From Prevotella sp. (GTDB lineage: Bacteria; Bacteroidota; Bacteroidia; Bacteroidales; Bacteroidaceae), in NCBI GenBank assembly GCA_017651265.1, contig JAGCDO010000044.1:1-44281 (forward strand): a DNA stretch of 44,281 bases. The letters are read 5' to 3'. The notes beneath the pieces are model-generated. The model had not been told where the DNA came from, did no database searches, and saw only the letters and a program-made list of their open reading frames with translations. Positions 5,697 through 20,537 of this stretch are shown here, piece after piece; the stretch's first letter is position 1; every line of letters starts with the position of its first letter. The position numbers and the translations under genes were made by a program.

Positions 5697-5764
5697 TGCT
5701 TGTTTGTTCTTTTAATAAAAGTTAAACATTCTGACCATTTACAGGAAATTCAGAACAATACAGG

Positions 5765-5772
5765 TAACTTTG
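5765..5772 (+). promoter_or_regulatory. promoter of the OmpP1-like gene
   Basis: TAACTTTG fits the -7 consensus and lies 27 bp before the ATG at 5800. The in-frame TTG at 5770 lies inside this element and is not a credible start. Confidence 0.6.
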
Positions 5773-5799
5773 CAGCCAAGTTTTTTAAAGGTATTTAAG

Positions 5800-7332
5800 A
5801 TGAGTAAATTAAAATTTATCAGCATCGTATTCATGATGACAGTCGCCAGCAACGTTTGGGCAGGCGGCATTCTTACAAACACCAACCAGAACCTCGCTTT
5901 CAACCGTAATATGGCACGTGACGGTATTATCGGGATTGACGGTGTATACAGCAACCCCGCAGGTGTGATCTTCATGGACAACGGTTTCCACCTCTCTGTG
6001 AACTGGCAGATGGCTTTCCAGACCCGTTCCATTTTCACCACCAATCCTGATTTCGCGTTGGGCATGGATAATGGCGGTATCACCACCAAGAAATTCAAGG
6101 GCGAAGCCAATGTGCCAGTCATCCCCTCTCTCCAGGCAGCCTACAACACCGGTCGCTGGAGTCTGCAAGCCAACATCGCCATTACCGGTGGCGGTGGAAA
6201 ATGTGAGTTCTCCGATGGTATCGGTTCCTTTGAGAGTGCTGTTGGTGCTATTGCCCACCAGCTTCAGCCGCTGGGATCAACAGGATATGATGCAGAAGGT
6301 TTCATGAGCGGTAAGCAGTATTACATCGGTTTCTCGTTGGGTGCCGCCTACAAGCTCACCGACAACCTCTCCATCTTTGGAGGTGCCCGTTTATTGTACG
6401 GTACTGCCTCATACAAAGCCAAGATGAGCAATATCATGGTGAACACGGCTGCAGGAGCCGTTCCCTTTGGTACCTTCCTCGACAATGCTAATACACGGAT
6501 CGCTGGCGGCATTGCCCAGTATGCAGATGGCATCAGTCAGTTAGAGGCAGGTATCGCTCAATACCAGGCTGCAGGAGCACCTGTACCACAGGAACTCACC
6601 ACCCAGCTGGCAACAGCACAGGCTGCCAAGGCACAGCTGGAAGGTACACAGAAGAGTCTGCAGACCCTCGAGACCTATCGTGAGGGCGTGAGCATGATGT
6701 CTGATCAGAGTGGTCTGGGCATTGCTCCCATCATAGGTGTTGACTATAAGATAGGTGCTTTCAACTTCGGTGCCAAATACGAGTTCAAAACCCGTATGCG
6801 TATGAAGAACAACTCCACGGTGAAAGAAGCCCATCAGATCGAGGCCGTGAACAAGTATCGCGATGGTAGTAGCGTTCCAGAAGACCAGCCAGCACTCTTC
6901 ACCGTTGGTGGTCAGTGGTCGGTAACTCCCTCCGTACGCGTCATGGCTGGCTATCACCTGTTCTTCGACAAGTCGGCACATTGGTATAACCACGACGAGA
7001 AGAAACTCGATGGTAACACATGGGAGTACAATGGCGGTGCCGAATGGGACGTAACCGACAAATTGTTGGTAAGTGCCGGTTTCCAGAAGACCAACTATGG
7101 TCTGTCTGATGAATACATGAACGATATGTCTTTCGTGGTGAGCAGCTACACCTACGGACTTGGTCTGCGTTACAAGATCAGTGACAAGGTGAAGGTGAAC
7201 GTGGCCTATTTCCAGACCAACTACGACACCTACAAGCAGGATGTAACACCTACTGCCACCAATGCCACGACACATAACGACTTCACCCGCACCAACAAAG
7301 TGTTTGGTGTAGGCGTGGATATCGATTTCTAA
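5800..7332 (+). CDS. OmpP1/FadL-type outer membrane transport protein
   Basis: A 510-residue beta-barrel. The signal peptide (MSKLKFISIVFMMTVASNVWA) is followed by the family-typical N-terminal hatch region, in which Asn-Pro-Ala (YSNPAGV) is conserved, then by alternating amphipathic strands up to a C-terminal aromatic (VGVDIDF). FadL-family proteins move hydrophobic substrates across the outer membrane; the substrate here is unknown. A helical, Ala/Gln-rich stretch (about residues 225-300, AGGIAQYADGISQLEAG onward) interrupts the barrel and looks like a coiled-coil insertion in a loop. It converges on priA with only 15 bp between. Confidence 0.82.
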   Translation: MSKLKFISIVFMMTVASNVWAGGILTNTNQNLAFNRNMARDGIIGIDGVYSNPAGVIFMDNGFHLSVNWQMAFQTRSIFTTNPDFALGMDNGGITTKKFKGEANVPVIPSLQAAYNTGRWSLQANIAITGGGGKCEFSDGIGSFESAVGAIAHQLQPLGSTGYDAEGFMSGKQYYIGFSLGAAYKLTDNLSIFGGARLLYGTASYKAKMSNIMVNTAAGAVPFGTFLDNANTRIAGGIAQYADGISQLEAGIAQYQAAGAPVPQELTTQLATAQAAKAQLEGTQKSLQTLETYREGVSMMSDQSGLGIAPIIGVDYKIGAFNFGAKYEFKTRMRMKNNSTVKEAHQIEAVNKYRDGSSVPEDQPALFTVGGQWSVTPSVRVMAGYHLFFDKSAHWYNHDEKKLDGNTWEYNGGAEWDVTDKLLVSAGFQKTNYGLSDEYMNDMSFVVSSYTYGLGLRYKISDKVKVNVAYFQTNYDTYKQDVTPTATNATTHNDFTRTNKVFGVGVDIDF

Positions 7333-7347
7333 TTCGTTGATTCTACA

Positions 7348-9657
7348 TTACAGCGGATCCACATCGAAGTAGATCTGCAACGCGTTATACCGCGAGTCCT
7401 GCATCATCTGACTCTGGATGAGCCGCAGGCACTCGCGGGCTTTTTTGATGTCTATCCCGTTCTCCAATTTGAGAACCAGCTTACGGATATGCATCGACTT
7501 TACCTTAGCAATGGACGGTTTATCCGGACCCAGCACGCGATTACCGAACCATTGTCTCATTCGTGTTCCCATCTCCATGCTGGCGGTGTTAGCCACCTGT
7601 TCATAGCGATGTTTCAGGAACACATACACCAGATGGTTGAATGGCGGATAGCGGAAAGTGCGACGCTCATCCAACTGATCATCAAAGAAAGCGGTATAGT
7701 CGTTGTTCACCACTTGCTGGATAACAGGCAGCTGCTGACTCTTCGTCTGCAGGATTACCAATCCCCGCTTTCCCTTGCGCCCTGCCCTGCCGCTTACCTG
7801 CGCCATCATCGTAAACGCATGCTCGAAGGCACGGAAGTCGGGATAGTTCAGCATCGAATCGGCATTGAGGATTCCCACCACCGACACACGGTCGAAATCC
7901 AGTCCTTTACTGATCATCTGCGTACCTATAAGCATCTGTGTACGTCCTGCGGCGAAATCATTGATCAACCGCTCATACGCATGTCGGGTTCTGGTGGTAT
8001 CAAGATCCATGCGAGCCACTCGCACTTCCGGGAAGATCTCCATGATCTGGTCCTCTATCTTCTCTGTGCCATAGCCCCTACCCGTCAGGTTCGTATTCCC
8101 GCAGTTCGGACACTTATCCGGCACCTGATATGTGTTACCGCAGTAATGACAGGTAAGCTGACCGCTGTTCTTATGGTAAGTAAGCGATACATCGCAATGT
8201 TGACAATGAGGTACCCATCCACACACCTTACACTCGATCATCGGTGCAAAGCCCCTGCGGTTCTGGAAGAGTATCACCTGCTCATTAGCCTCTAAGGCCT
8301 TACGGATGCTCGACAAAAGCAGCGGTGAGAACGGACCGTTCATCATCTTCCTCCGCTGGAGGTCGCGCACATCCACCACCTGTATTTCAGGCAGTTGGAT
8401 ATCCTGGTAACGCTGCTGGAGCGATACGAGTCCGTATTTCCCCACCTTAGTATTATAATAGCTCTCTATCGAAGGAGTAGCAGTACCCAACAATGTTCGT
8501 GTGTTCAGCGTTCCATTTATCTCCGTGCATATCCTGGCCAGCATGATAGCAGCACTTCTTGCGTGATATCGTGGAGCAGGATCCTGTTGTTTGAACGACG
8601 TCTCGTGCTCCTCATCAATAATCACCAATCCTAAGCGTTGGAAAGGCAGGAACACAGCCGAGCGGGCACCAAGGATCACATCGTATGGATTGGCCGACAG
8701 CTGTTTCTTCCATATCTCCACTCGCTCAGCATCGCTGTATTTCGAGTGATAGATACCCAAACGATTGCCAAACACCCGTTGCAGACGGTCGCGCATCTGT
8801 ACCGTCAGGGCAATCTCGGGCAACAGATACAGCACCTGCTGCTTTTTCTCTATGGCCTCTTTGATTAAGTGGATATAGATCTCGGTCTTACCGCTCGAGG
8901 TAACACCGTGTAACAATACGATCTTCTTACTCAGGAACTGAAACAGGATCTGGTTATATGCCTCCTGCTGTGCCGCATTCAATGCCTTGACCTTGTCGAG
9001 GTGCGGCTCACCGCCGTGGTTCAGTCGTCCCACCTCCTTTTCATACAGCACGAGGAATTTCTTATCAATCAACTGCTTCAAGATGGCGGATGTGCAATGC
9101 GAGTAGTTCATCAGCTCATCCTTCGATACCTCTTCGCACACTCCGCACTCCTCACTCCTCCCTTCACGCTCCTCAAGACTATCCCAACGGGACAGCTGCA
9201 GGTAGTCGATGAACACTTTCTGCTGCTTGGGGGCACGTGCCAACATATCCAGTGCGATATGCAGAGCCTGTTCGTTGCGGTATTTCTCGCCCAGTGCTAC
9301 GTACGTCTCCAGTTTCGGCTTATATCCCTCAACGGTTTTCATTCCCAAGGGGAAGGCCGCATTATACACCTCGCCAATGGGTGACAGGTAATAATCGGCG
9401 ATCCATTGCCATAGACGGAACTGCTCCTCGCGCACCACAGGTTCGGCATCCAATACTTCGAGCACCTCCTTGATCTGCGCAAAGTCGGGTTTTCTGTCAT
9501 GCACCTCCACCGCAAGACCTACATACTTCTTACTCTTTCCCAGCGGCACCAGTACACGCACTCCCCTCTTCACCTTCTCCGCTAACCTCTCTGGCACGGC
9601 GTAGGTAAAGAACCCTTCTAAGGGCAGGGGCAATATCACGTCAACGTATCTCTTCAT
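7348..9657 (-). CDS. priA: primosomal replication protein N' (PriA helicase)
   Basis: A 769-residue superfamily 2 helicase that reloads the replisome at stalled forks. Visible are Walker A (GVTSSGKTEIY), the DEEH box (IIDEEHE), the zinc-binding insert with four Cys pairs (CKVC, CQHC, CHYC, CPNC), and motifs V-VI (GTQMISKGLDF, QVSGRAGRKG). The ATG at 9657 is preferred over an upstream in-frame TTG because it follows a TATATTTG promoter at good distance. Residues encoded at 9131-9176 (EEREGRSEECGVCEEV region) come from a CTCACTCCT-type low-complexity repeat and look like an in-frame insertion between the N-terminal DNA-binding region and the helicase core. Confidence 0.95.
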   Translation of the reverse strand: MKRYVDVILPLPLEGFFTYAVPERLAEKVKRGVRVLVPLGKSKKYVGLAVEVHDRKPDFAQIKEVLEVLDAEPVVREEQFRLWQWIADYYLSPIGEVYNAAFPLGMKTVEGYKPKLETYVALGEKYRNEQALHIALDMLARAPKQQKVFIDYLQLSRWDSLEEREGRSEECGVCEEVSKDELMNYSHCTSAILKQLIDKKFLVLYEKEVGRLNHGGEPHLDKVKALNAAQQEAYNQILFQFLSKKIVLLHGVTSSGKTEIYIHLIKEAIEKKQQVLYLLPEIALTVQMRDRLQRVFGNRLGIYHSKYSDAERVEIWKKQLSANPYDVILGARSAVFLPFQRLGLVIIDEEHETSFKQQDPAPRYHARSAAIMLARICTEINGTLNTRTLLGTATPSIESYYNTKVGKYGLVSLQQRYQDIQLPEIQVVDVRDLQRRKMMNGPFSPLLLSSIRKALEANEQVILFQNRRGFAPMIECKVCGWVPHCQHCDVSLTYHKNSGQLTCHYCGNTYQVPDKCPNCGNTNLTGRGYGTEKIEDQIMEIFPEVRVARMDLDTTRTRHAYERLINDFAAGRTQMLIGTQMISKGLDFDRVSVVGILNADSMLNYPDFRAFEHAFTMMAQVSGRAGRKGKRGLVILQTKSQQLPVIQQVVNNDYTAFFDDQLDERRTFRYPPFNHLVYVFLKHRYEQVANTASMEMGTRMRQWFGNRVLGPDKPSIAKVKSMHIRKLVLKLENGIDIKKARECLRLIQSQMMQDSRYNALQIYFDVDPL

Positions 9658-9756: not shown

Positions 9757-11874
9757 TTATTGCTCCACCATCCTATATACTTTCCCTTGATTGGTTCTGC
9801 GCACCTCGAAATTAAACTGGGTGTCGTTCAGGGCATTGCCCATAGCCGTATTACTGATTCCCGGATCAAACGAGGCATAGTAGCAACTCAGAATCTCTTT
9901 GATCTCATCAATGGAGAGCCAGCGGGCCTCTTCCGACGGCTTAGGACTTCGGAAGGTGCCTGCAATCATTTCCTCAAGGGTATAGAGCTGCTGATAGCAT
10001 TCGTTCTCCTTGATCAGTTCGGCAATCTCCACATCATTCAGCCAGAAGCGTTCACCGTTATTGAACAGGTGGAGAGCCTGGGCAAAGAGCTGCTGGTGAT
10101 TCAACGAGTCGTCGTAGTTGATATGTCCTGTCACGCCGATGCAGGCAAAACGGCGGGATCCTGTAGGATCAGTCAGCGGCTTTCGTTTGTTGGTGGTACC
10201 GATGAATGAGGTGTATCTGCGGTATTGCTTGATGGTCTTACCGTAAGGCGGACGGAACTTCACATCAGCCGACGAGAGCAGGTATTTCAGAACCACCTGC
10301 TGACTCTTGGTGGTCTTGTCGAACTCATCGATGTTGATCAGGGCGAATGAGGTAAGCGCGATGTTCAGGTCGAACTCGTTCTTGAAGTTGATCTTGTCGT
10401 TGTAGTAGTCGCGCAGTTCCGGCGGCAGGATGATTTTACAGAAACGCGTCTTTCCGCAGCCCTGTCTGCCAATCAGCAAGGGAACCAATGCATTACCTGT
10501 CAGTTGTTTGTCGCTTTCACGCCACTGGGCCACCATACCCGTGAGCCACATCTTCAGGTACTTTTCCCAATGGGGCTGATCTGTCGGCACACGCCCAGCG
10601 AGTTCCTTGATATAGTCATGACCGTCCCACTGAGGCAGCTTGTCGAGCCAGGTGTTCACAGGATCATACTGTTCGATACGTGTGGAGTCGATGAAACGAT
10701 TCACGTTCTTGTCCCACGCTTTCAGTCCCAGTTCCACAGCCCTGAGCGTCATATCGTTCCTTACTTCTTCGGTCAGCGGCTTGTAGGTCTGGTCATTGCT
10801 GTATCTCTCTCGATATTCGGCCACACCAGTCATGAGGTTCTTACGCATAAAGAAGTTCGCATTGAGGAAAATCTCGGTCCTCATGGCCTGGATGGTCTCT
10901 TCAGGAACACTTTTCAGCGGTTTGAAAGGATGTTTCTCCAGATAGTCTTCCTGCAGGGTAACGGCATATACCGAATCAAAAATGTTCCTTACCAGTATCT
11001 CGTCCCTGCCCAATACTGGATGACTGAGTGTGAGTTGTTGTGCTTGCGCCATGGGGATGCCCTCGTTCAGACAGGCTGTGGCCACTCGCATCAGCAGTTC
11101 CATCTCCCGTTGTTCATCAGGCAATTCAAAATACCGCCCCAGGACATTGTTCACGATGAAGAGCCAATTGAGGTGATAAGTCCTGTCAATCGTTCTTCCG
11201 GGCATCAGACTGTCACTTTCCTCACTGATGCTGACGGGTTCTTGCTGCTCAGGCTTTTTAGTATCTGCCAGGAAGGCTCGCGCCTCAGGGTTGAAGAACA
11301 CCTCCGGGTCGGCACTCAAATAAACCGTGCGATCCAGTCTCGGCTCCAGGTATTCGATGTTCATCTGGAACTGGTTCTGATAGGCCAGCCGCGCCGTCTC
11401 GTACAGATTCTTATGGAACTGCCGAATCTCCTCTTCCTCCTTGGGCAATGATCCTTTTTCATATAGTTCGCCCCTGCACACAATCTTCACACTCTTCCCC
11501 GACCCGCCGAGAAAGGCCATCAGCGTCTCAGGCATCTTACTGGCCTGGTTCCTAAGCGTGACGGCCTGCTCATAGCTATCCAGACCGTTCAGTTCCAGTA
11601 CCACCAGACCGTTGTAGCTTACCATCAGCCGTTCATGATTCTTGTGAGCATATTCTGCAGCGAAACAGATACGGGGCAGATTGATGTCAGTACTGAAATC
11701 CGTCAATACCTGTCCGTCCGCTTGTCTTTCTGTTCTCATCAGATGGTACACTTGACGAATCTGTTTCACTTCCTTGGCCACGCTTCCTTCACGGATAGCC
11801 ATGGCTACATTCGTGAGTTCCTCACGGTTAATCACTTCTTTTCTACGACTAATTTTAAGAATTGTTACCTTCAT
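9757..11874 (-). CDS. VirE/BT4734-type primase-helicase-like protein
   Basis: A 705-residue protein. Residues about 1-190 resemble the BT4734-like/VirE_N domain, which is related to archaeo-eukaryotic primases. The centre and C-terminus resemble the VirE/VapE-type P-loop NTPase with Walker A GRQGCGKT (Lys475) and Walker B FALINIDEFDK, followed by GTTNKRKPLTDPTGSRRF (sensor and arginine region), and then a DUF3874-like tail. Such proteins are common on Bacteroidetes mobile elements and are thought to act in element replication; that role is inference here. A good promoter precedes it, and an iteron-like array begins just beyond that promoter. No integrase or relaxase is seen nearby, so any mobile element would be a remnant. 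Confidence 0.82.
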   Translation of the reverse strand: MKVTILKISRRKEVINREELTNVAMAIREGSVAKEVKQIRQVYHLMRTERQADGQVLTDFSTDINLPRICFAAEYAHKNHERLMVSYNGLVVLELNGLDSYEQAVTLRNQASKMPETLMAFLGGSGKSVKIVCRGELYEKGSLPKEEEEIRQFHKNLYETARLAYQNQFQMNIEYLEPRLDRTVYLSADPEVFFNPEARAFLADTKKPEQQEPVSISEESDSLMPGRTIDRTYHLNWLFIVNNVLGRYFELPDEQREMELLMRVATACLNEGIPMAQAQQLTLSHPVLGRDEILVRNIFDSVYAVTLQEDYLEKHPFKPLKSVPEETIQAMRTEIFLNANFFMRKNLMTGVAEYRERYSNDQTYKPLTEEVRNDMTLRAVELGLKAWDKNVNRFIDSTRIEQYDPVNTWLDKLPQWDGHDYIKELAGRVPTDQPHWEKYLKMWLTGMVAQWRESDKQLTGNALVPLLIGRQGCGKTRFCKIILPPELRDYYNDKINFKNEFDLNIALTSFALINIDEFDKTTKSQQVVLKYLLSSADVKFRPPYGKTIKQYRRYTSFIGTTNKRKPLTDPTGSRRFACIGVTGHINYDDSLNHQQLFAQALHLFNNGERFWLNDVEIAELIKENECYQQLYTLEEMIAGTFRSPKPSEEARWLSIDEIKEILSCYYASFDPGISNTAMGNALNDTQFNFEVRRTNQGKVYRMVEQ

Positions 11875-12443: not shown

Positions 12444-12888
12444 ATCAATCGCGAAGTGCTTGGAAATCAGCGTGCAGAGTATGGAAAGCAAATTGTGTCG
12501 ACAGTGTCGACACAAATCACGTGGTCACATATTGTAGAGATATTACCTCTCAAGGATACCCTTCAAAGTGAGTTTTATCTGACTCTCGCTGCATCAGAGA
12601 GATGGAGTGTTCGCCAACTCCGCAAGGAAATCGATGGTATGCTTTATGAACGCACAGCCATCAGCGGCAAGCCCGATCAGTTTATAAAACAAGAATTGTC
12701 GGAACTGCGCGATAATGCCACGCTGACCCCTGATTTGGTCTTCAAGAGTCCATATTTCTTGGAGTTTACAGGCTTGAAGGGTATGTATAGCGAGAAAAGC
12801 CGAATTGCCATCACGCGAAGTGCTACGACTACAGATACAGAAATCCCTAGAGGCAGCTAAGGCGCGCTTTGAGAATCTTATTGAGTAG
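12444..12888 (+). pseudogene. decayed DUF1016 (YhcG/PDDEXK-type) nuclease-family gene
   Basis: The reading frame beginning INREVLGNQRAEYGKQIV continues into TQITWSHIVEILPLK, then ERWSVRQLRKEIDGMLYERTA, and ends LEFTGLKGMYSEK. All of these are characteristic of DUF1016 N-terminal regions. About 30-40 residues normally found between KQIV and TQITWSH are absent, and the junction lies in a tandem GTGTCGACA duplication. After GMYSEK the frame shifts, and the remaining coherent frame reads LPSREVLRLQIQKSLEAAKA to a stop at 12886-12888, so the catalytic C-terminal half is gone. The gene has also lost its start. It is a relic with no expected activity. Confidence 0.75.
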
Positions 12889-12996
12889 AAACATAACGAG
12901 AAGGAGATTGCCGCACTGACAGAATGGTTGGTGCGGTTTTCTTTGCCTCAAAACAAAATTCTTCTCCTGATTATTCCATTGTATTGTTTTTTTTCG

Positions 12997-13004
12997 TATC
13001 TTTG
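12997..13004 (+). promoter_or_regulatory. promoter of the restriction-modification leader
   Basis: TATCTTTG fits the -7 consensus, preceded by a T-rich stretch with TTG at 12979-12981 and 12984-12986. It predicts transcription from about 13010, leaving a leader of roughly 420 nt before the mod gene. No closer promoter is seen. Confidence 0.55.
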
Positions 13005-13009
13005 CCCCT

Positions 13010-13430
13010 GCATCTGCCTGTTGCGGCTGTTATGTCATCCGTGGATGACGAAGCTGGTGGGTGGAGCACTACATTGCGGAATAAGCGACACTGTACGCTT
13101 TGTTTTTGGACATTTGAACGTAGGAAACTCAAATCTCAATCAAAGACAAACGCAGAGGTGACGCCTACGGATGTGTATATCATGCGCAGCCGGAGTGTGC
13201 CGAGGGCTAACAGTATGCCCTCACGCACACTTTTGGGTGCATTGTATATATACCGTCTGAGGGTATCGAATCTGTTCGTTCTATTGAGAAGGCACTTCCT
13301 ACGGCCTAAATGTCGGAACGGGCAGAAGGAGATACCCTCGTTCTTTTCTGGTATGTAGTCAAACAAGACGGGCAATCATATAAAAGTCTGCTTATTGTGG
13401 GTATCTGTAGGCGCATGACATAAGAGATAC
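13010..13430 (+). ncRNA. candidate structured leader RNA of the type III R-M operon
   Basis: No credible gene fills this stretch, but several strong stems do. GTCATCC/GGATGAC pairs at 13034-13049. AAGCG/CGCTT pairs at 13083-13100. A nested arm at 13173-13253 has GTATATCATGC with GCATTGTATATATAC, then GTGTGC/GCACAC, then GAGGGC/GCCCTC. A second arm at 13259-13339 has GAGGGTATC/GATACCCTC enclosing an 11-12-bp helix with two G-U pairs (13271-13282 with 13315-13326). CGCCTAC (13162-13168) can pair with GTAGGCG (13407-13413), closing the two arms into one domain just before the mod ATG. It could be a cis-regulatory leader or a separate RNA; I do not recognise it as a named family. Confidence 0.55.
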
Positions 13431-15431
13431 ATGGACAATCTGCATTTATACCACGTGTTGGAAGGGGCACTTAGAATGGAAGATCAATTCTGTGCCACTG
13501 ATGGGCAATTGATAAAGAACAGCATCGTTGAAGCAGCACTTTCACTTCAACCGAATTTGATAAGACTACTACTGGCTAACGAAGAGCTCGCTGCTTGTTT
13601 TTTTACTGATGTAGAAGGCGTGAAGGTTTTTGACAAAGTGAAGTTCCAACGCTTCGTGATGAACAAGTCTTTCTTGGCTGACAGCTATACCTCATATAAG
13701 AATAAAATTGGGCTTACAGATGAGGATGGTAGATACGTTAGTGAGAGCCGTGAGGTGATTCTTTCCTGGCCATACAAAGATTGCATGCTTGAAGGAGGAC
13801 AGACAAAAGAAGATGCCAGGCGTGACGAAATCTTCTGGAGCGAAATACTTGCACCTGATGCCATCAATCGACTGACTGAGCCTAAGGTTTTTACGGAATT
13901 CAAGAGGTTTGATAAGGATGGAGAGCATGATGTAGAACATTTGCTCTCTACTGACAATCTTATCATCAAAGGGAATAATCTTCTGGCCCTCTATTCTCTC
14001 CGCAAAGAATTTGCTGGTAGAATAAAACTGATATACATAGATCCTCCATATTATTTTGTAGCAAATAAGAAGGAGGATACCTTTAACTACAATTCGAACT
14101 TCAAACTTTCCACTTGGTGTACTTTTATGAAGAACCGATTGGAGATAGCCAGAGAATTACTTAGTGACGATGGGGCCATCTTTGTGCAAATCAGCGATGA
14201 CGGCGTTGGTGAACTGCATCTCATTTTGAAAGATGTATTCAATAATGATGGAGAGAACAATTTCATTAACAAGATAACTGTCAAGACAAAATCGCCTTCA
14301 GGATTTGCCAGTGTGAATCCTGGAGTTTTTGAGACGGCAGAATATATTCTTGCTTTTGCAAAGCACAAGTCTCAATGGAAATTCAATCAGCAGTATGTGA
14401 AATCAGAATATGATGCAAACTATGCATTTTATATAACCAACCCAGACCAGCCTTGCTCTGATTGGGTGTTTGAAAGAGTTGATTCTCTTGTTGCAAAGGA
14501 ACTGGGATATTCTGACAAAAAAGCAGCTCTAAAGAAAGTCAACGAGCATCTTTTCATGCAACTCGTAGGTGATTTTGCCTTGAAGAATAAAGAACGTGTA
14601 TTCCGTTTGACAGCAATTAATGATGATGCAGCAGCTGAAGCCGTAGCTCTAAGAGAACAATCGCGATTAAACCCTGAGGCTATCTATAGCCTTGAAAGGC
14701 CAAACAATTACACCTTGTATGTAACGAAAGCGCAAGAAATCGCATTCTACTCAAAGAAAGTTAGAGGAATAGACGGTGAGACAACTCCTAGCATGCAATT
14801 AACGAACATGTGGACGGATATTTCATATGAAGGTATTGCAAAAGAAGGGGGTGTGAAGTTAAAAGGTGGCAAGAAGCCAGAAAGGTTGATTAGAAGAATC
14901 ATAAACATGGCATCCAATCCTGGCGATATTGTTTTGGATTTCTTTTCTGGTAGCGGGACTACAGCTTCTGTAGCATACAAAATGGGGCGTCAGTTTATAA
15001 CTTGCGATCAGCTTGACTCTCAAATAAAAATGTCCATGAAACGCCTAAAGAATGTTTCTGTTGGCGAACAATCGGGAATCAGCAAACTTGTCAACTGGCA
15101 AGGTGGCGGTTCTTTCATTTATTGTGAGTTAGCCAAAGCAAATGATATATTTGTGGACATGATACAGACTGCAACTACTACTGATGAGTTGAAGACAATT
15201 TGGACGCAAATGAAGGAAACCGGATATCTCAGTTACAAGATAAATATTGCTACAATCGATGCTAATGCTTCTGACTTTGAAGCTCTATCTATTGAAGACC
15301 AGAAGCGTTTCCTTATAGAGTGCCTTGACAAGAACATGCTCTACGTACCCTTCAGCGATATTGATAGTGAGGAATATGCTATCAGCGAAGAGGACAAGCG
15401 TTTAACTCGTGAATTCTACAAAAAGGCATAA
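13431..15431 (+). CDS. type III restriction-modification methyltransferase subunit (Mod)
   Basis: A 666-residue DNA adenine N6-methyltransferase. The catalytic motif DPPY (residues 204-207, preceded by IKLIYI) comes before the SAM-binding FSGSG (505-509), the order of beta-class enzymes including EcoP-type Mod. The roughly 250-residue stretch between the motifs would hold the target recognition domain, so the site recognised cannot be read from sequence. The N-terminal region (FWSEILAPDAINRLTEPK, then LIIKGNNLLALYSLRKEF) is typical of Mod. The res gene starts 2 nt after its stop, so the pair is an operon. Base composition is more A+T-rich than the housekeeping genes, which fits acquisition by transfer. 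Confidence 0.93.
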   Translation: MDNLHLYHVLEGALRMEDQFCATDGQLIKNSIVEAALSLQPNLIRLLLANEELAACFFTDVEGVKVFDKVKFQRFVMNKSFLADSYTSYKNKIGLTDEDGRYVSESREVILSWPYKDCMLEGGQTKEDARRDEIFWSEILAPDAINRLTEPKVFTEFKRFDKDGEHDVEHLLSTDNLIIKGNNLLALYSLRKEFAGRIKLIYIDPPYYFVANKKEDTFNYNSNFKLSTWCTFMKNRLEIARELLSDDGAIFVQISDDGVGELHLILKDVFNNDGENNFINKITVKTKSPSGFASVNPGVFETAEYILAFAKHKSQWKFNQQYVKSEYDANYAFYITNPDQPCSDWVFERVDSLVAKELGYSDKKAALKKVNEHLFMQLVGDFALKNKERVFRLTAINDDAAAEAVALREQSRLNPEAIYSLERPNNYTLYVTKAQEIAFYSKKVRGIDGETTPSMQLTNMWTDISYEGIAKEGGVKLKGGKKPERLIRRIINMASNPGDIVLDFFSGSGTTASVAYKMGRQFITCDQLDSQIKMSMKRLKNVSVGEQSGISKLVNWQGGGSFIYCELAKANDIFVDMIQTATTTDELKTIWTQMKETGYLSYKINIATIDANASDFEALSIEDQKRFLIECLDKNMLYVPFSDIDSEEYAISEEDKRLTREFYKKA

Positions 15432-15433
15432 CG

Positions 15434-18400
15434 ATGGCAATAAAGGAATTGTTCTACAATGGGCTGATGAATGGTACGATAAATCGCGTACCACTGCCTG
15501 ACTATTTTGAAACGAGTCTTTCAAGAAAACTCAGGCCATATCAAGTAGAGTGTTTTCGGAACTTCTTGATGTATATTGCTAACGACTTCGATGGCAAGCA
15601 GGCTCGCCCTCATCTGCTGTTTCACATGGCAACAGGTTCTGGCAAAACATTGATAATGGCTGGTGCAATGCTTTATCTCTACGAACAGGGTTACCGCAAC
15701 TTTCTGTTCTTTGTAGATAGCACTAATATCGTAGAGAAAACAAAGGATAACTTTCTCAACGCTGCATCAAGTAAATATCTCTTTGCACCACAGATAGCAA
15801 TCAATGGGAATCGGGTGGAAATCAGGAATGTTGACAACTTCCAGGGTGCGGCAACAGACTGTATAAACCTCTGTCTTTGCACTATTCAAGGGCTTCACTC
15901 AGACTTGAACTCTGAAAAGGAGAATGCGCTGACTTATGATGATTTCACAGACCAGCCTGTTGTCTTGATTTCAGATGAAGCTCACCACATGAATGCCTGG
16001 ACCAAACGCGGTTCTAAGACGAAAGAAGAGGAACAGCACATCAAGAACTGGGAGCAGACTATAACGAACATTTTCAACAAGGATAACGGTGCTTTGCCCA
16101 ACATCTTGCTGGAGTTTACTGCTACTGCTGATCTTTCAGATTCTGCCATTGCCCAGAAATACGAAGATAAAATCATCTTTGACTACCAACTTAAGAAGTT
16201 TCGCGAGGACCGATACTCGAAAGATGTGGAGGTGGTAGAGACCGACCTCGCCCCACTTGACAGAGCGCTTCAGGCAATGATTCTAAGTCAGTATAAGCGT
16301 AAATTGTTTGCTAGCATAAGGCTGAACATCAAGCCCGTTGTGCTATTGAAATCCAAGACCATCCCAGACAACAAAGAAATATATACTGTTTTCATAAGTG
16401 CCGTTTCAAGGCTTGACATAAACGGAGTGAATAGGATACGGGAAAGGGCCAAGGATGATTTGAAGGCAGCTTTTGACTACTTTGACGCACATGCCATCTC
16501 TGCTGAGAATTTGATACTTGAGCTAAAAGAGGAATTCGCAGAAGAACGTCTCCTACTTGTAGATGGGAATAACATTTCTGCGGAAAAGCAACAATTGCTC
16601 AATACGCTTGAAGACCCATCGAATGGTATCCGTGCTATCTTTGCCGTAGATATGCTCAACGAAGGCTGGGATGTGCTGAACCTGTATGATATTGTCAGAC
16701 TATATGATTCACGTGTAGTGGAGAACGGAAAACCGGGCAAAACGACTATTCAGGAAGCCCAGTTGATAGGGCGTGGAGCACGATATATGCCTTTCGCCGA
16801 CCCTAGCCATCCTGAGTTTGAAACCGACAAACGAAAATACGACGGCGACGCATCGAATCCGCTTCGCGTGATAGAGAAACTGCATTATCATAGTGCCCAC
16901 AATCCACGTTATATTCAGGAACTCAAGACTGTACTCAGAGAGAAAGGAATCATACCCGAATCAAGAGTGCAACTCGACCTTTTCCTGAAAAACGATTTCA
17001 AGGGAAGTCGCCTTTACCAAAAAGGTATCGTGTTTACCAACGAACGAAAACCGCTCGCACAATTGGAAGACGATGGAACCATAGGCTGTGCCATACTGAA
17101 AAAGACATTCAAGGTAGTTATGCCTACAGGTAAGATGCGTTCTGGTCTTATCTTTGGCGATGCTGCCCCCAGTGAAGTACTGACGAGTGTCATCATTAGC
17201 ATAAAACTAGAAGAATTGGGCAAGCATATTATACGAACGGCTCTAAACAGTTTTTCAACATACAATTTCAATTCGCTGAAACAACTCTATCCGCAACTCA
17301 AGTCGTGTAAGGAGTTTATCGAGAGCGACAACTATTTGGCAAAACTTGCAGTCAAAGTGAACGGTAGCCAAACATCGCTTGCAGGCTACACACAGGAAGA
17401 CAAGCTGTATATTGCCAGAATGGTGCTGAAAGAGTTGGAACCCATGCTACGGACCAGAGGCAGAAGTTATCGGGGAACAAAAGAATTCAAGCCATCAGAG
17501 TTCTACACGATATTCAGAGACAAGATATCGCTGAACATCTCGATACCGGCCAATGGAAATCAAGAGTTCGGAAAATCGATGAAGACACCGAGCAATCCAG
17601 AATATGCACTCGACCTGCTGAAAGTCAAATGGTATGCCTATAATGACAACTACGGCACATCCGAGGAGAAGGCTCTTGTCAAATATATCGAGAGCAAGAT
17701 GGAGAAGTTCGAAGAGAAGTACGACGAGATATATCTTGTGCGCAATGAAAAGGACTTGAGGATATATGACTTCGCAGAAGGCCGTCCTTTTGAGCCAGAC
17801 TTTGTCCTGTTCCTCCGCGTAAAAGGTTCGAAAGACAAGTATGACAACCTTCAACTCTTCATAGAACCCAAGGGAGATCATCTGCTTGTAACTGACAAAT
17901 GGAAAAATGATTTCTTGAAGCAGATAAAGGCGATGGCAGAAATATCCTGGTGTACCCAAAACGATGATTTCTGTGTTTGGGGTGTTCCTTTCTTCAATGA
18001 AAAGACGAACACAGATTTCGTGGCGACTATGGATGATGAAGTTTTAGGATATATAGACCAAGAATCCGAGGCCCAAGAAGACAAGCCCCAAGAAGACAAG
18101 GGGACGCTGACCATACCAATCTACAACGAATATCACGATGGTTGCTTACCGCTTTATTCGTTCCATGTAGCCTGCGGAATCAATGAAGAGCAGACTAATC
18201 CCAAGGAAGATGCAGGCAGATGGGTAGACGTGTCCGGGAATGGATTTACCCCCGACCCTCAGAAGTATTTTGTAGTCTATGCCAAGGGCAACTCAATGGT
18301 TCCCAAAATTCACGATGGCGACTTGTGTGTTTTTGAATGGGGCAGATATTATGGTGGGTCTCGTAACGGGGAGATTGTCTTAGCCAGAACACCTGCAGAC

Positions 18401-18607
18401 GACAATGACTATCAAGGCAAGTTTACCATCAAGGAATATACCAGTGAATGGGCATATAATGAGGATGGAGAGAAGGAACATAGTAAGATAGAGTTGCTAC
18501 CTCTAAATACTGACGGGTACGAACCGATACTATTGGACAAGGATGAGCCTGAACGTCATTATATCGTTGGCATATTCAAAACTGTCATTAAGAAAGAAAG
18601 ACAATAA
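15434..18607 (+). CDS. type III restriction subunit (Res) with C-terminal UmuD/LexA-like S24 domain
   Basis: A 1057-residue protein. Residues about 25-480 are an SF2 translocase with Walker A ATGSGKT (Lys71), DEAH box (181-184), TATAD and motif VI QLIGRGARY. A PD-(D/E)xK nuclease core follows, with Pro788-Asp789 and Glu811-Pro-Lys813. An acidic repeat linker (AQEDKPQEDKG, from about 880) leads to an extra ~165-residue domain resembling UmuD. LPLYSFHVACG aligns with the UmuD cleavage region, giving a Cys914-Gly915 counterpart. GNSM supplies Ser954 and FTIKEY supplies Lys1000. All residues needed for S24-type self-cleavage therefore appear present. Whether it cleaves itself is not known. A standard EcoP-type Res has no such tail. 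Confidence 0.9.
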   Translation: MAIKELFYNGLMNGTINRVPLPDYFETSLSRKLRPYQVECFRNFLMYIANDFDGKQARPHLLFHMATGSGKTLIMAGAMLYLYEQGYRNFLFFVDSTNIVEKTKDNFLNAASSKYLFAPQIAINGNRVEIRNVDNFQGAATDCINLCLCTIQGLHSDLNSEKENALTYDDFTDQPVVLISDEAHHMNAWTKRGSKTKEEEQHIKNWEQTITNIFNKDNGALPNILLEFTATADLSDSAIAQKYEDKIIFDYQLKKFREDRYSKDVEVVETDLAPLDRALQAMILSQYKRKLFASIRLNIKPVVLLKSKTIPDNKEIYTVFISAVSRLDINGVNRIRERAKDDLKAAFDYFDAHAISAENLILELKEEFAEERLLLVDGNNISAEKQQLLNTLEDPSNGIRAIFAVDMLNEGWDVLNLYDIVRLYDSRVVENGKPGKTTIQEAQLIGRGARYMPFADPSHPEFETDKRKYDGDASNPLRVIEKLHYHSAHNPRYIQELKTVLREKGIIPESRVQLDLFLKNDFKGSRLYQKGIVFTNERKPLAQLEDDGTIGCAILKKTFKVVMPTGKMRSGLIFGDAAPSEVLTSVIISIKLEELGKHIIRTALNSFSTYNFNSLKQLYPQLKSCKEFIESDNYLAKLAVKVNGSQTSLAGYTQEDKLYIARMVLKELEPMLRTRGRSYRGTKEFKPSEFYTIFRDKISLNISIPANGNQEFGKSMKTPSNPEYALDLLKVKWYAYNDNYGTSEEKALVKYIESKMEKFEEKYDEIYLVRNEKDLRIYDFAEGRPFEPDFVLFLRVKGSKDKYDNLQLFIEPKGDHLLVTDKWKNDFLKQIKAMAEISWCTQNDDFCVWGVPFFNEKTNTDFVATMDDEVLGYIDQESEAQEDKPQEDKGTLTIPIYNEYHDGCLPLYSFHVACGINEEQTNPKEDAGRWVDVSGNGFTPDPQKYFVVYAKGNSMVPKIHDGDLCVFEWGRYYGGSRNGEIVLARTPADDNDYQGKFTIKEYTSEWAYNEDGEKEHSKIELLPLNTDGYEPILLDKDEPERHYIVGIFKTVIKKERQ

Positions 18608-18709
18608 CGGCAGAGGCATAACTCAGGCAAGCCCTTGGCAAATTCTACCCAAAGAGCAGCCATACTCAAATAGGCTGTAGGGGTATGCCAACACCTTGCC
18701 AACACTATC

Positions 18710-19051: not shown

Positions 19052-19076
19052 TCACGGGACAGGTCAATGACATCAA
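19046..19076. repeat. inverted repeat; short copy of the dispersed repeat
   Basis: TTGATGTCA (19046-19054) and TGACATCAA (19068-19076) form a perfect 9-bp inverted repeat around 13 bp. The core matches 18710-18736 exactly. It spans both the stop codon of the ATPase gene and the broken start of the ORF6N remnant. Confidence 0.7.
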
Positions 19077-20515
19077 AAGGCTTTGAACCTATTATAGCCA
19101 ACAGTATATGCATAAATCGCAGACGGAATGAACTCTAATCTTACCGATCTCAGTTGCTTTACACCACGTTTTGTTAACGATGTTACCAACGCTCTTTCCA
19201 CATGATTATTTTCCATGAAATACAGGAGTGACTTTAACTCTGCCGGTTTATCGAAATAACGGTCTGACCATTTTACCTCTACCGCCCAATCGGCTTTTTG
19301 TTTTGCAATATCGATGCCTACAATATCGACTTCCCCAGGTGCTGTCCCTTTATTCCAATTGGCGTATTTTATTATAGATGTACGCGTTTGTAACCATTGT
19401 GCAAAGATTGCCGTTTCCACCATTCCTCCAATCGCTGGGTCGGTCTCTGTAAGTGGTGAAAAGAGAGCACAACGAAGTGATGGATTAGTAAGATATATCT
19501 TAAACGATGTTATGCGTTGCATCGTTTTTGCATTAGCATCTACCTTATAAACTATGTTAATGAGGAATGCCGCTTCAAGATACATCAAATACTTCTTTAG
19601 CACCTCCTTCCTGATTTCCGATTCTCTGGATATGACTTCATATGAAAACTCTTCTCCGGAATGATATGCGATATAAATAAAAAGGCGGTTTAACTCTTGC
19701 GTATCCTGGATACCGTACAAACTTGGAAGATCTCGGAGTAATACCTTATCTACAATGTCGTGTCGGATATATTGACCTGGATCCTGCCTCATCTTTTCTG
19801 AAAAGACGATTTCCGGATAACCGCCATAATTGATGTAGTCAATGAAATAACTGTTTAGTTTACCGATATCCAACGTATCAACATAAGAAGTCAACGGGTC
19901 ATCAACATCTTTAGCCTTCTTCGTTATGATACTGTTAAGATTGAGCAAATGTATGTATTCATTGAAAGTCAATGGAGGTAGCATAAAGTCGGTAAAACGT
20001 CCAGCTCCACTTTCATTGCTTTTCATCTTCAATGCTGCAGCTGCGGAACCTGAAGCGATAAACTTGGCGCTTCGGAATGTGTCTATCATTGACTTTAAAT
20101 GGACTTCCCAGTCTTTCAGATATTGAATTTCATCATAGAACACATAATAGTCGTCTTGGGTATTGGAGCTATTCAATGCTTCTTTTGCCAAAGAAAAGAG
20201 TTCTTCTAATGAAATATTATTGTAGATCGGAGTATCAATAGACAGATATATAATATGCTGTGCAGACACGCCCTCATTAATTAGTCTTTCAATGACATGA
20301 TATATCATGACTGTTTTTCCTATGCGTCTCGGTCCCATCAATATGACTCCACGATGAATGTCTCTATTGGTTACTTCATCATAAAAACTATCCAAATAGA
20401 GTCTATGTCGCATCTCATGGAAAACTTGAGGAATGGCATTTGTTTCCCACCACGGATTGTCATTCCTCATCCTTTTTATGATCTGTTCATTCAAATACGG
20501 TGCCCTATTATTCAT
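19073..20515 (-). CDS. AAA ATPase with DUF4143 C-terminal domain
   Basis: A 480-residue protein. The N-terminal AAA_14-type P-loop domain has Walker A MGPRRIGKTVMIYHV and Walker B DYYVFYDEIQYL. The C-terminal DUF4143 region has GEVDIVGIDIAKQKADWAVEVKWSD, which resembles a PD-(D/E)xK nuclease core (Asp...Glu-x-Lys). The biochemical role of this widespread family is not established; it is patchily distributed and often sits near mobile or defence genes. The ATG at 20515 is preferred to a TTG six bases upstream. A TACATTTG promoter lies 23 bp upstream. The stop codon falls in the dispersed repeat, so the true C-terminus might have been altered by its arrival. Confidence 0.85.
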   Translation of the reverse strand: MNNRAPYLNEQIIKRMRNDNPWWETNAIPQVFHEMRHRLYLDSFYDEVTNRDIHRGVILMGPRRIGKTVMIYHVIERLINEGVSAQHIIYLSIDTPIYNNISLEELFSLAKEALNSSNTQDDYYVFYDEIQYLKDWEVHLKSMIDTFRSAKFIASGSAAAALKMKSNESGAGRFTDFMLPPLTFNEYIHLLNLNSIITKKAKDVDDPLTSYVDTLDIGKLNSYFIDYINYGGYPEIVFSEKMRQDPGQYIRHDIVDKVLLRDLPSLYGIQDTQELNRLFIYIAYHSGEEFSYEVISRESEIRKEVLKKYLMYLEAAFLINIVYKVDANAKTMQRITSFKIYLTNPSLRCALFSPLTETDPAIGGMVETAIFAQWLQTRTSIIKYANWNKGTAPGEVDIVGIDIAKQKADWAVEVKWSDRYFDKPAELKSLLYFMENNHVERALVTSLTKRGVKQLRSVRLEFIPSAIYAYTVGYNRFKAF

Positions 20516-20537
20516 ACGCAATGATGTTTATTGGCCA

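Follow-up and report, generated by a model that had tools for sequence, protein, structure and literature searches.

The restriction subunit (Res) of a type III restriction-modification system from Prevotella sp. ends in a real S24 (UmuD/LexA-type) domain, which is fused to an otherwise complete enzyme. Its gene lies in a 44,281-nucleotide stretch (GenBank assembly GCA_017651265.1, contig JAGCDO010000044.1, positions 1 to 44,281), hereafter the window, and occupies positions 15434 to 18607 of the plus strand as a single uninterrupted open reading frame (ORF) of 1057 aa with an ATG start. The original prediction, made from the letters of the window, treated the tail as a peculiarity of a type III enzyme. 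The finding is larger than first stated, as the tail proved to be a transferable S24 module found on many restriction and defence enzymes. On balance, we lean towards the view that a RecA-sensing self-cleavage module has been acquired repeatedly by type I, type III, LlaJI, MZA-like, SLFN- and DUF3427-helicase systems, serving as a LexA-independent, post-translational control of immunity in Bacteroidota, probably via a latent degron.

The Pfam family Peptidase_S24 (PF00717, E 6e-10) matched residues 906-1045 with 39.3 bits in the whole protein and 44.8 bits when the tail was searched by itself (cut-off 23.3), so the proposed fusion is confirmed within one ORF. The extent of the tail had to be revised, as the domain proper covers about residues 901-1052 (18134..18589), while about residues 871-895 (18044..18118) form an acidic linker past the point where tail-less relatives end. 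The predicted fold of the tail was S24-like and matched RecA-bound structures of LexA, UmuD and CI, a comparison based mainly on VIA-align and sequence, with modest Foldseek TM-scores. The closest sequence match in the PDB was E. coli UmuD (8GMT, 1UMU), which aligns with the tail at the Cys-Gly scissile bond, the GxSM serine and the IPMN region. However, UmuD stands alone (139 aa in the 8gmt chain), whereas the tail is fused to Res, and the NCBIfam model of UmuD (PRK10276) gave 18.6 bits, below its cut-off of 110, placing the tail outside UmuD proper. LexA, HdiR, IrvR and phage CI begin with a DNA-binding repressor part, whereas Res has a nuclease/translocase there, and no helix-turn-helix was found in the Pfam results for Res.

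Excerpts of PMC8565304 give the signature of S24 self-cleavage as an Ala-Gly bond (Cys-Gly in UmuD) and a Ser-Lys dyad. All of these residues are present in Res and lie exactly where they had been predicted: the scissile bond Cys914-Gly915 (18173..18178), aligned with the Cys-Gly of UmuD 8gmt, and the catalytic Ser954 (18293..18295) and Lys1000 (18431..18433). Judged from these features, the tail is probably a catalytically competent autoprotease, and its self-cleavage is very likely. Chance resemblance or a fusion artefact was considered and rejected on the S24 score, the conserved residues and the recurrence of the fusion in other assemblies.

Conservation was assessed in the 66 loci with a tail at E below 1e-15, four of which were present twice (62 without duplicates) and one of which, L084, is cut off before the Lys. 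The catalytic Ser and the Met directly after it were found in 66/66 tails and the Lys in 65/65 of those reaching that far, and thus the predicted dyad survived the check for conservation among homologues, just as the tail survived that of its fold. The residue on the enzyme side of the bond (P1) was Cys in 57 tails and Ala in nine, P1' was Gly in 60, His in three, Ser in two and Thr in one, and P2 was Ala in 64 and Val in two, with P3-P2 being [AVI]-[AV] in all 66; the three residues before the bond read VAC in the window and VAA in, for example, L089. The distance from P1 to Ser was 36-44 residues and that from Ser to Lys 44-49 in the 61 non-duplicate tails reaching the Lys, compared with 37 from Ser to Lys in the genome's own UmuD. 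The dyad and scissile site are conserved on HsdS, Res, LlaJI, DUF4420 and SLFN-g3 helicase hosts, and are therefore a property of the module's own chemistry.

The tails differ from UmuD in which side of the bond is conserved. Among 60 tails, column entropy was 1.22 bits for P2-P11, the side left on the enzyme, against 2.01 bits for P2'-P11'. UmuD-like proteins of the same bacterial family showed the opposite, with 1.40 bits on the P side, where one column was mostly gaps, and 0.85 bits on the P' side (30 rows), and P2 in these proteins was mostly basic (Lys, Arg or His in 27/31; these rows comprise the query and 30 of its 44 matches, with one protein present twice). Two rows of this control, L171 and L172, may be other S24 proteins, as they have Val at P2 and lie in frames of 222 and 206 aa, respectively. 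The contrast was kept after thinning to 70% or 60% identity. In the UmuD-like proteins it is the P' fragment that is the working product.

The body of Res has the features of a type III restriction subunit, with a superfamily 2 (SF2) motor and a PD-(D/E)xK nuclease. The ResIII motor domain (PF04851, E 5e-30) covers residues 32-232 (15527..16129), and the PADLOC REase_III model spans residues 16-870 (E 7e-125). The motor motifs are intact (Walker A ATGSGKT 66-72, SDEAHH 180-185, EFTATAD 227-233, QLIGRGARY 443-451), as is the nuclease region, where FEPDFVLF from residue 786 and LFIEPKG up to 814 were read off the sequence as a putative PD-(D/E)xK nuclease motif (17789..17875). The methyltransferase subunit Mod (666 aa; 13431..15431) is encoded on the same strand and ends 2 bases before the start of res, as in type III systems of the EcoP15I type. 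It carries methylase domains (PF12564, E 3e-22; PF01555, E 2e-42; PADLOC MTase_III, E 8e-184) and the motifs DPPYY and DFFSGSGTT.

Type III relatives without a tail end differently. Six tail-less Res proteins, of which five share 52-55% and one 42% identity in the body tree, and the partial L008 stop 7-10 aa past the body match, just behind the nuclease. Matches to Res occurred in 243 plasmid records and ended at residues 855-916 in the 30 listed, none covering the tail. Because seven relatives end right after the nuclease and the listed plasmid relatives lack the tail, we regard the tail as an add-on to Res. The same fusion was present in three other assemblies (L052-L054), whose Res bodies are 97.5-99.5% identical to that of the window, and in a fourth (L081), whose body is 69.5% identical, which makes an assembly artefact very unlikely. 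The three nearest copies of the tail came from assemblies of uncultured Prevotella or Prevotellaceae. In the body tree, the tailed Res proteins (window, L052-L054 and L081) formed one clade with support of 99/100.

Blastn comparison with L052-L054 delimited a mod-res-tail cassette on the plus strand (12989..18708), with matches stopping near both ends and the flanks unmatched in these loci. Identity was 99.2% to L054 over 12993-18708, 99.4% to L053 over 13228-18654, the left side being ended by the start of the L053 contig, and 93-95% to L052 over 12989-18708 except for 14055-14934 inside mod. That segment, without a match in L052, is possibly an exchanged target-recognition region.

When the whole Res was searched against 201 genomes of the window's family, 28 contained matches, which comprised tail-less Res bodies, other proteins with a tail, and some weak hits to parts of helicases. 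With the tail profile at E 1e-20, 18/201 family genomes were positive, and the hosts were 11 SLFN-g3 helicases, two Res proteins that differ in kind, among them that of the window, single cases of HsdM-S, HsdS, HsdR and LlaJI, and one host without an assigned class. At the same threshold, 18/395 genomes of a phylum sample had a tail; besides the window, its 17 tails were on nine SLFN-GIY-type, five DUF3427-type and two HsdR-type bodies (BLAST) and one protein without assignment. In GTDB contigs, 68 loci were detected, 49 of which (L052-L100) contain the module, in part only for L084, L085 and L100. The other 19 (L101-L119) comprise 18 weak matches to the tail profile in frames of 97-247 aa and L111, which had no match.

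Pfam domains of 18 representatives identified the hosts as HsdR of several types, HsdS, HsdM-S, Res, LlaJI, DUF4420, SLFN-g3 with or without GIY-YIG, and a PLD-DUF3427 helicase; all further hosts were assigned by BLAST clustering with these. The DUF4420 host, found for instance in Xylanibacter brevis ATCC 19188 (L076:5999-7465), resembles MzaD of the MZA system, with a score far below that model's cut-off. Another named organism with a tail is Chitinophaga dinghuensis DSM 29821 (L099). A 565-aa protein seen at one locus recorded twice (L032:5293-6987, L080:6236-7930) has the S24 domain in its middle and no other Pfam domain, and its self-cleavage would yield two halves. Within the loci (4-14.5 kb stretches), more than one tail match was found in L090 and L084 alone. 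L090 encodes two tailed enzymes 3.6 kb apart, an SLFN-g3 helicase that runs off the contig (3-2126) and a PLD-DUF3427 helicase (5726-9088); its contig is labelled as a Rhizobium metagenome-assembled genome, a label that may be wrong since its relatives are Bacteroidota. The HsdR gene of L084 (3794-7382) has its tail across two reading frames, through a frameshift or an assembly error. In Prevotella aff. ruminicola Tc2-24 (L059:7482-12905), a tailed HsdM-S stands beside DUF3375 and SbcC-like genes, which resemble a Wadjet system.

No relative of the window's tail was found by tblastn at 1e-5 among 72,556 plasmid and 50,697 phage records, and none was among 32 pattern matches in a scan of viral contigs. 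A phage or plasmid origin thus has no support in these collections, although absence there is no proof. With the L089 tail as query, one Halomonas record in the plasmid collection was matched (NZ_CP040452.1, 1652241-1652705), a stretch without a listed gene and 39% identical to the query, and the module may therefore reach beyond Bacteroidota.

Tails have also moved between classes of enzyme. The tails of L035 (HsdS) and L036 (Res) are 81% identical and sisters at 100/100, those of L056 (HsdM-S) and L097 (HsdR) are 78% identical, and those of L060 (HsdM-S) and L065 (HsdS) are 90% identical, although in this last pair a kinship of the S parts is possible. On the tree of 60 tails, host class had to change 16 times for ten classes, where the minimum is nine and shuffled classes gave a mean of 33.1 (0/200 as low as 16). 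Host class thus clusters strongly on the tree, which indicates that transfer was repeated rather than free. A single clade was rejected for HsdS tails (p value of the approximately unbiased test, p-AU, 1e-6), not rejected for HsdM-S tails (p-AU 0.06), and marginally rejected for Res tails (p-AU 0.044). The L081 tail does not stand beside those of the window group, and Res may thus have gained tails on two separate occasions, though the tailed Res bodies form one clade. Long branches leave some joins in the tail tree unsure.

The genome of the window (3.16 Mb, 94% complete; window on contig C41) encodes one RecA and a ClpX. The three S24-type regions found in it are the Res tail, a 161-aa protein on contig C8, and UmuD (152 aa, ...KVHAGFPSP..., with an Ala-Gly site). 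A UmuC-like gene, so called for its sequence and its place, comes after umuD (L141:1944-3725, contig C27). An origin of the tail by joining of this UmuD to Res was rejected, as spacing and site differ and the UmuD/UmuC-like pair lies elsewhere. No LexA DNA-binding domain was found in the 94% complete genome, and a non-canonical Bacteroidetes LexA of the kind described in excerpts of PMC8565304 should appear as a further S24 match. The original prediction linked the enzyme to the SOS state; the RecA filament describes the presumed signal better in a cell with RecA, ClpX and UmuD/UmuC-like genes and no LexA found.

Tentatively, we propose that the tail may be a damage-triggered fuse on the type III enzyme, whose cleavage would switch the enzyme off; RecA is likely to be the trigger. 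In an undamaged cell, Res with its tail intact would restrict incoming DNA together with Mod. RecA filaments on single-stranded DNA would dock the S24 domain, which would then cut its own chain at Cys914-Gly915 with Ser954 as nucleophile and Lys1000 as base. This would release a 143-residue tail and leave a Res ending in LPLYSFHVAC, and the new C-terminus (candidate degron CLPLYSFHVAC, residues 904-914; 18143..18175) would be a latent degron, recognised by ClpXP or a similar protease, like the N-terminal fragment of LexA. Restriction would drop while unmodified host sites made during repair are re-methylated, and the outcome would be a built-in restriction alleviation without need for LexA.

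The direction of the switch had been left open, and we moderately favour off over on, because the conserved side of the cut is the one that stays on the enzyme, whose new end would closely resemble a known degron. In E. coli, the LexA fragment has Val-Ala-Ala as its last residues. ClpXP C-degrons lie directly next to the autocleavage site in LexA and LexA-like proteins, according to extracts of PMC5742171 and PMC10584840, and the excerpted text of PMC4231737 treats alleviation of EcoKI via ClpXP acting on HsdR as established. The proposed removal of a restriction subunit by a Clp protease resembles this; however, a self-cleaving domain is not described in that excerpt, and targeting there depends on translocation.

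Several observations weigh against the fuse. Alleviation in E. coli targets single translocating complexes, which the same part of PMC4231737 takes as an argument against an SOS response of a general kind. Instead of being a degron, the conserved P side may form a structural strand in the catalytic cleft, and the entropy of the P' columns is raised by the variable length of the stretch in which they lie. Once cut, 57/66 tailed proteins would end in Cys and not Ala, and ClpX may not accept a terminal Cys; a few of the six tails with a P1' other than Gly may cut poorly. On HsdS and HsdM-S hosts, alleviation is a poorer fit, since modification too would stop once the subunit is removed. Compared with the near-identical L052-L054, the tail differs at 2-3 nonsynonymous and 0-1 synonymous positions, too few for a statement on constraint, and in the dN/dS comparison with L081 the synonymous sites were saturated. 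LexA could be missing by chance from a genome that is 94% complete.

The tail could also act in the other direction, restraining the intact enzyme until RecA-triggered self-cleavage, upon single-stranded DNA from infection or damage, frees an active nuclease as a late, damage-gated defence. A cut Res would resemble an ordinary tail-less Res, and SLFN-g3 helicases, the DUF3427 helicase and MzaD-like hosts, which are not known to depend on a protecting methylase, could benefit from being restrained. Cleavage activates UmuD itself (PMC8565304, in excerpt). We nevertheless consider such activation rather unlikely, as it does not predict conservation of the enzyme-side end rather than the released tail, and a common steric inhibition would be hard to picture for a module joined by a variable linker to the far end of very different proteins.

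Improbable, in our assessment, is a role confined to docking or pairing, in which the enzyme is positioned or assembled through binding of the tail to RecA filaments, to a second tail or to UmuD, with cleavage secondary or absent. The S24 domain of LexA doubles as a dimerisation domain in the portion of PMC8565304 cited above, the tail model matches the RecA-bound structures, and type III and type I enzymes generally act as multimers; however, pure docking needs no kept Ser, Lys and Cys/Ala-Gly bond across hosts. Very unlikely is constitutive maturation, with the tail removing itself shortly after translation whether or not there is damage, for example so that restriction starts only once Mod has methylated the genome of a new host. 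The intact self-cleavage residues would allow it, and the different surroundings of the cassette in related genomes imply that establishment in new hosts recurs, but it leaves unexplained the choice of a RecA-response fold and the presence of the module on very different systems. Damage-triggered switching off thus remains the reading that we prefer.

S24 domains fused to restriction enzymes were undescribed among the literature matches listed, in keeping with the original prediction that such control of a type III system is new, although an earlier note outside the open literature is possible. In a term search, S24, LexA and UmuD were absent from the searched portions of recent surveys of defence systems (PMC12839542, PMC10853773, PMC12458937). 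The nearest parallel is the pairing of nucleases with proteases in antiviral immunity, where, in the excerpt of PMC12799240, a protease module has likewise been acquired repeatedly by unrelated immune systems. However, that protease is trypsin-like and activates a proenzyme nuclease, whereas the S24 domain here is a predicted self-cutter.

Genes around the cassette include two of candidate defence-associated families, a DUF1016_N protein before it (12456-12860; PADLOC PDC-S02) and an AAA_14-DUF4143 ATPase after it (19073-20521; PADLOC PDC-S01). Further upstream, a BT4734-like/VapE-like protein (9757-11874) is perhaps part of a mobile element.

How a host shields itself from its own restriction during DNA repair has been worked out mainly for EcoKI-type enzymes. 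If our proposal is true, a self-cutting tail, carried by eight or more kinds of host enzyme, would solve this problem in a general way for a phylum with many gut and rumen bacteria. It would also place immune nucleases and translocases under S24 control, in addition to repressors and a polymerase subunit. The module is a regulatory domain whose movement between immune systems is independent of the effector parts, and its distribution suggests a shared, transferable tie between the defences of these bacteria and the state of the cell's own DNA.

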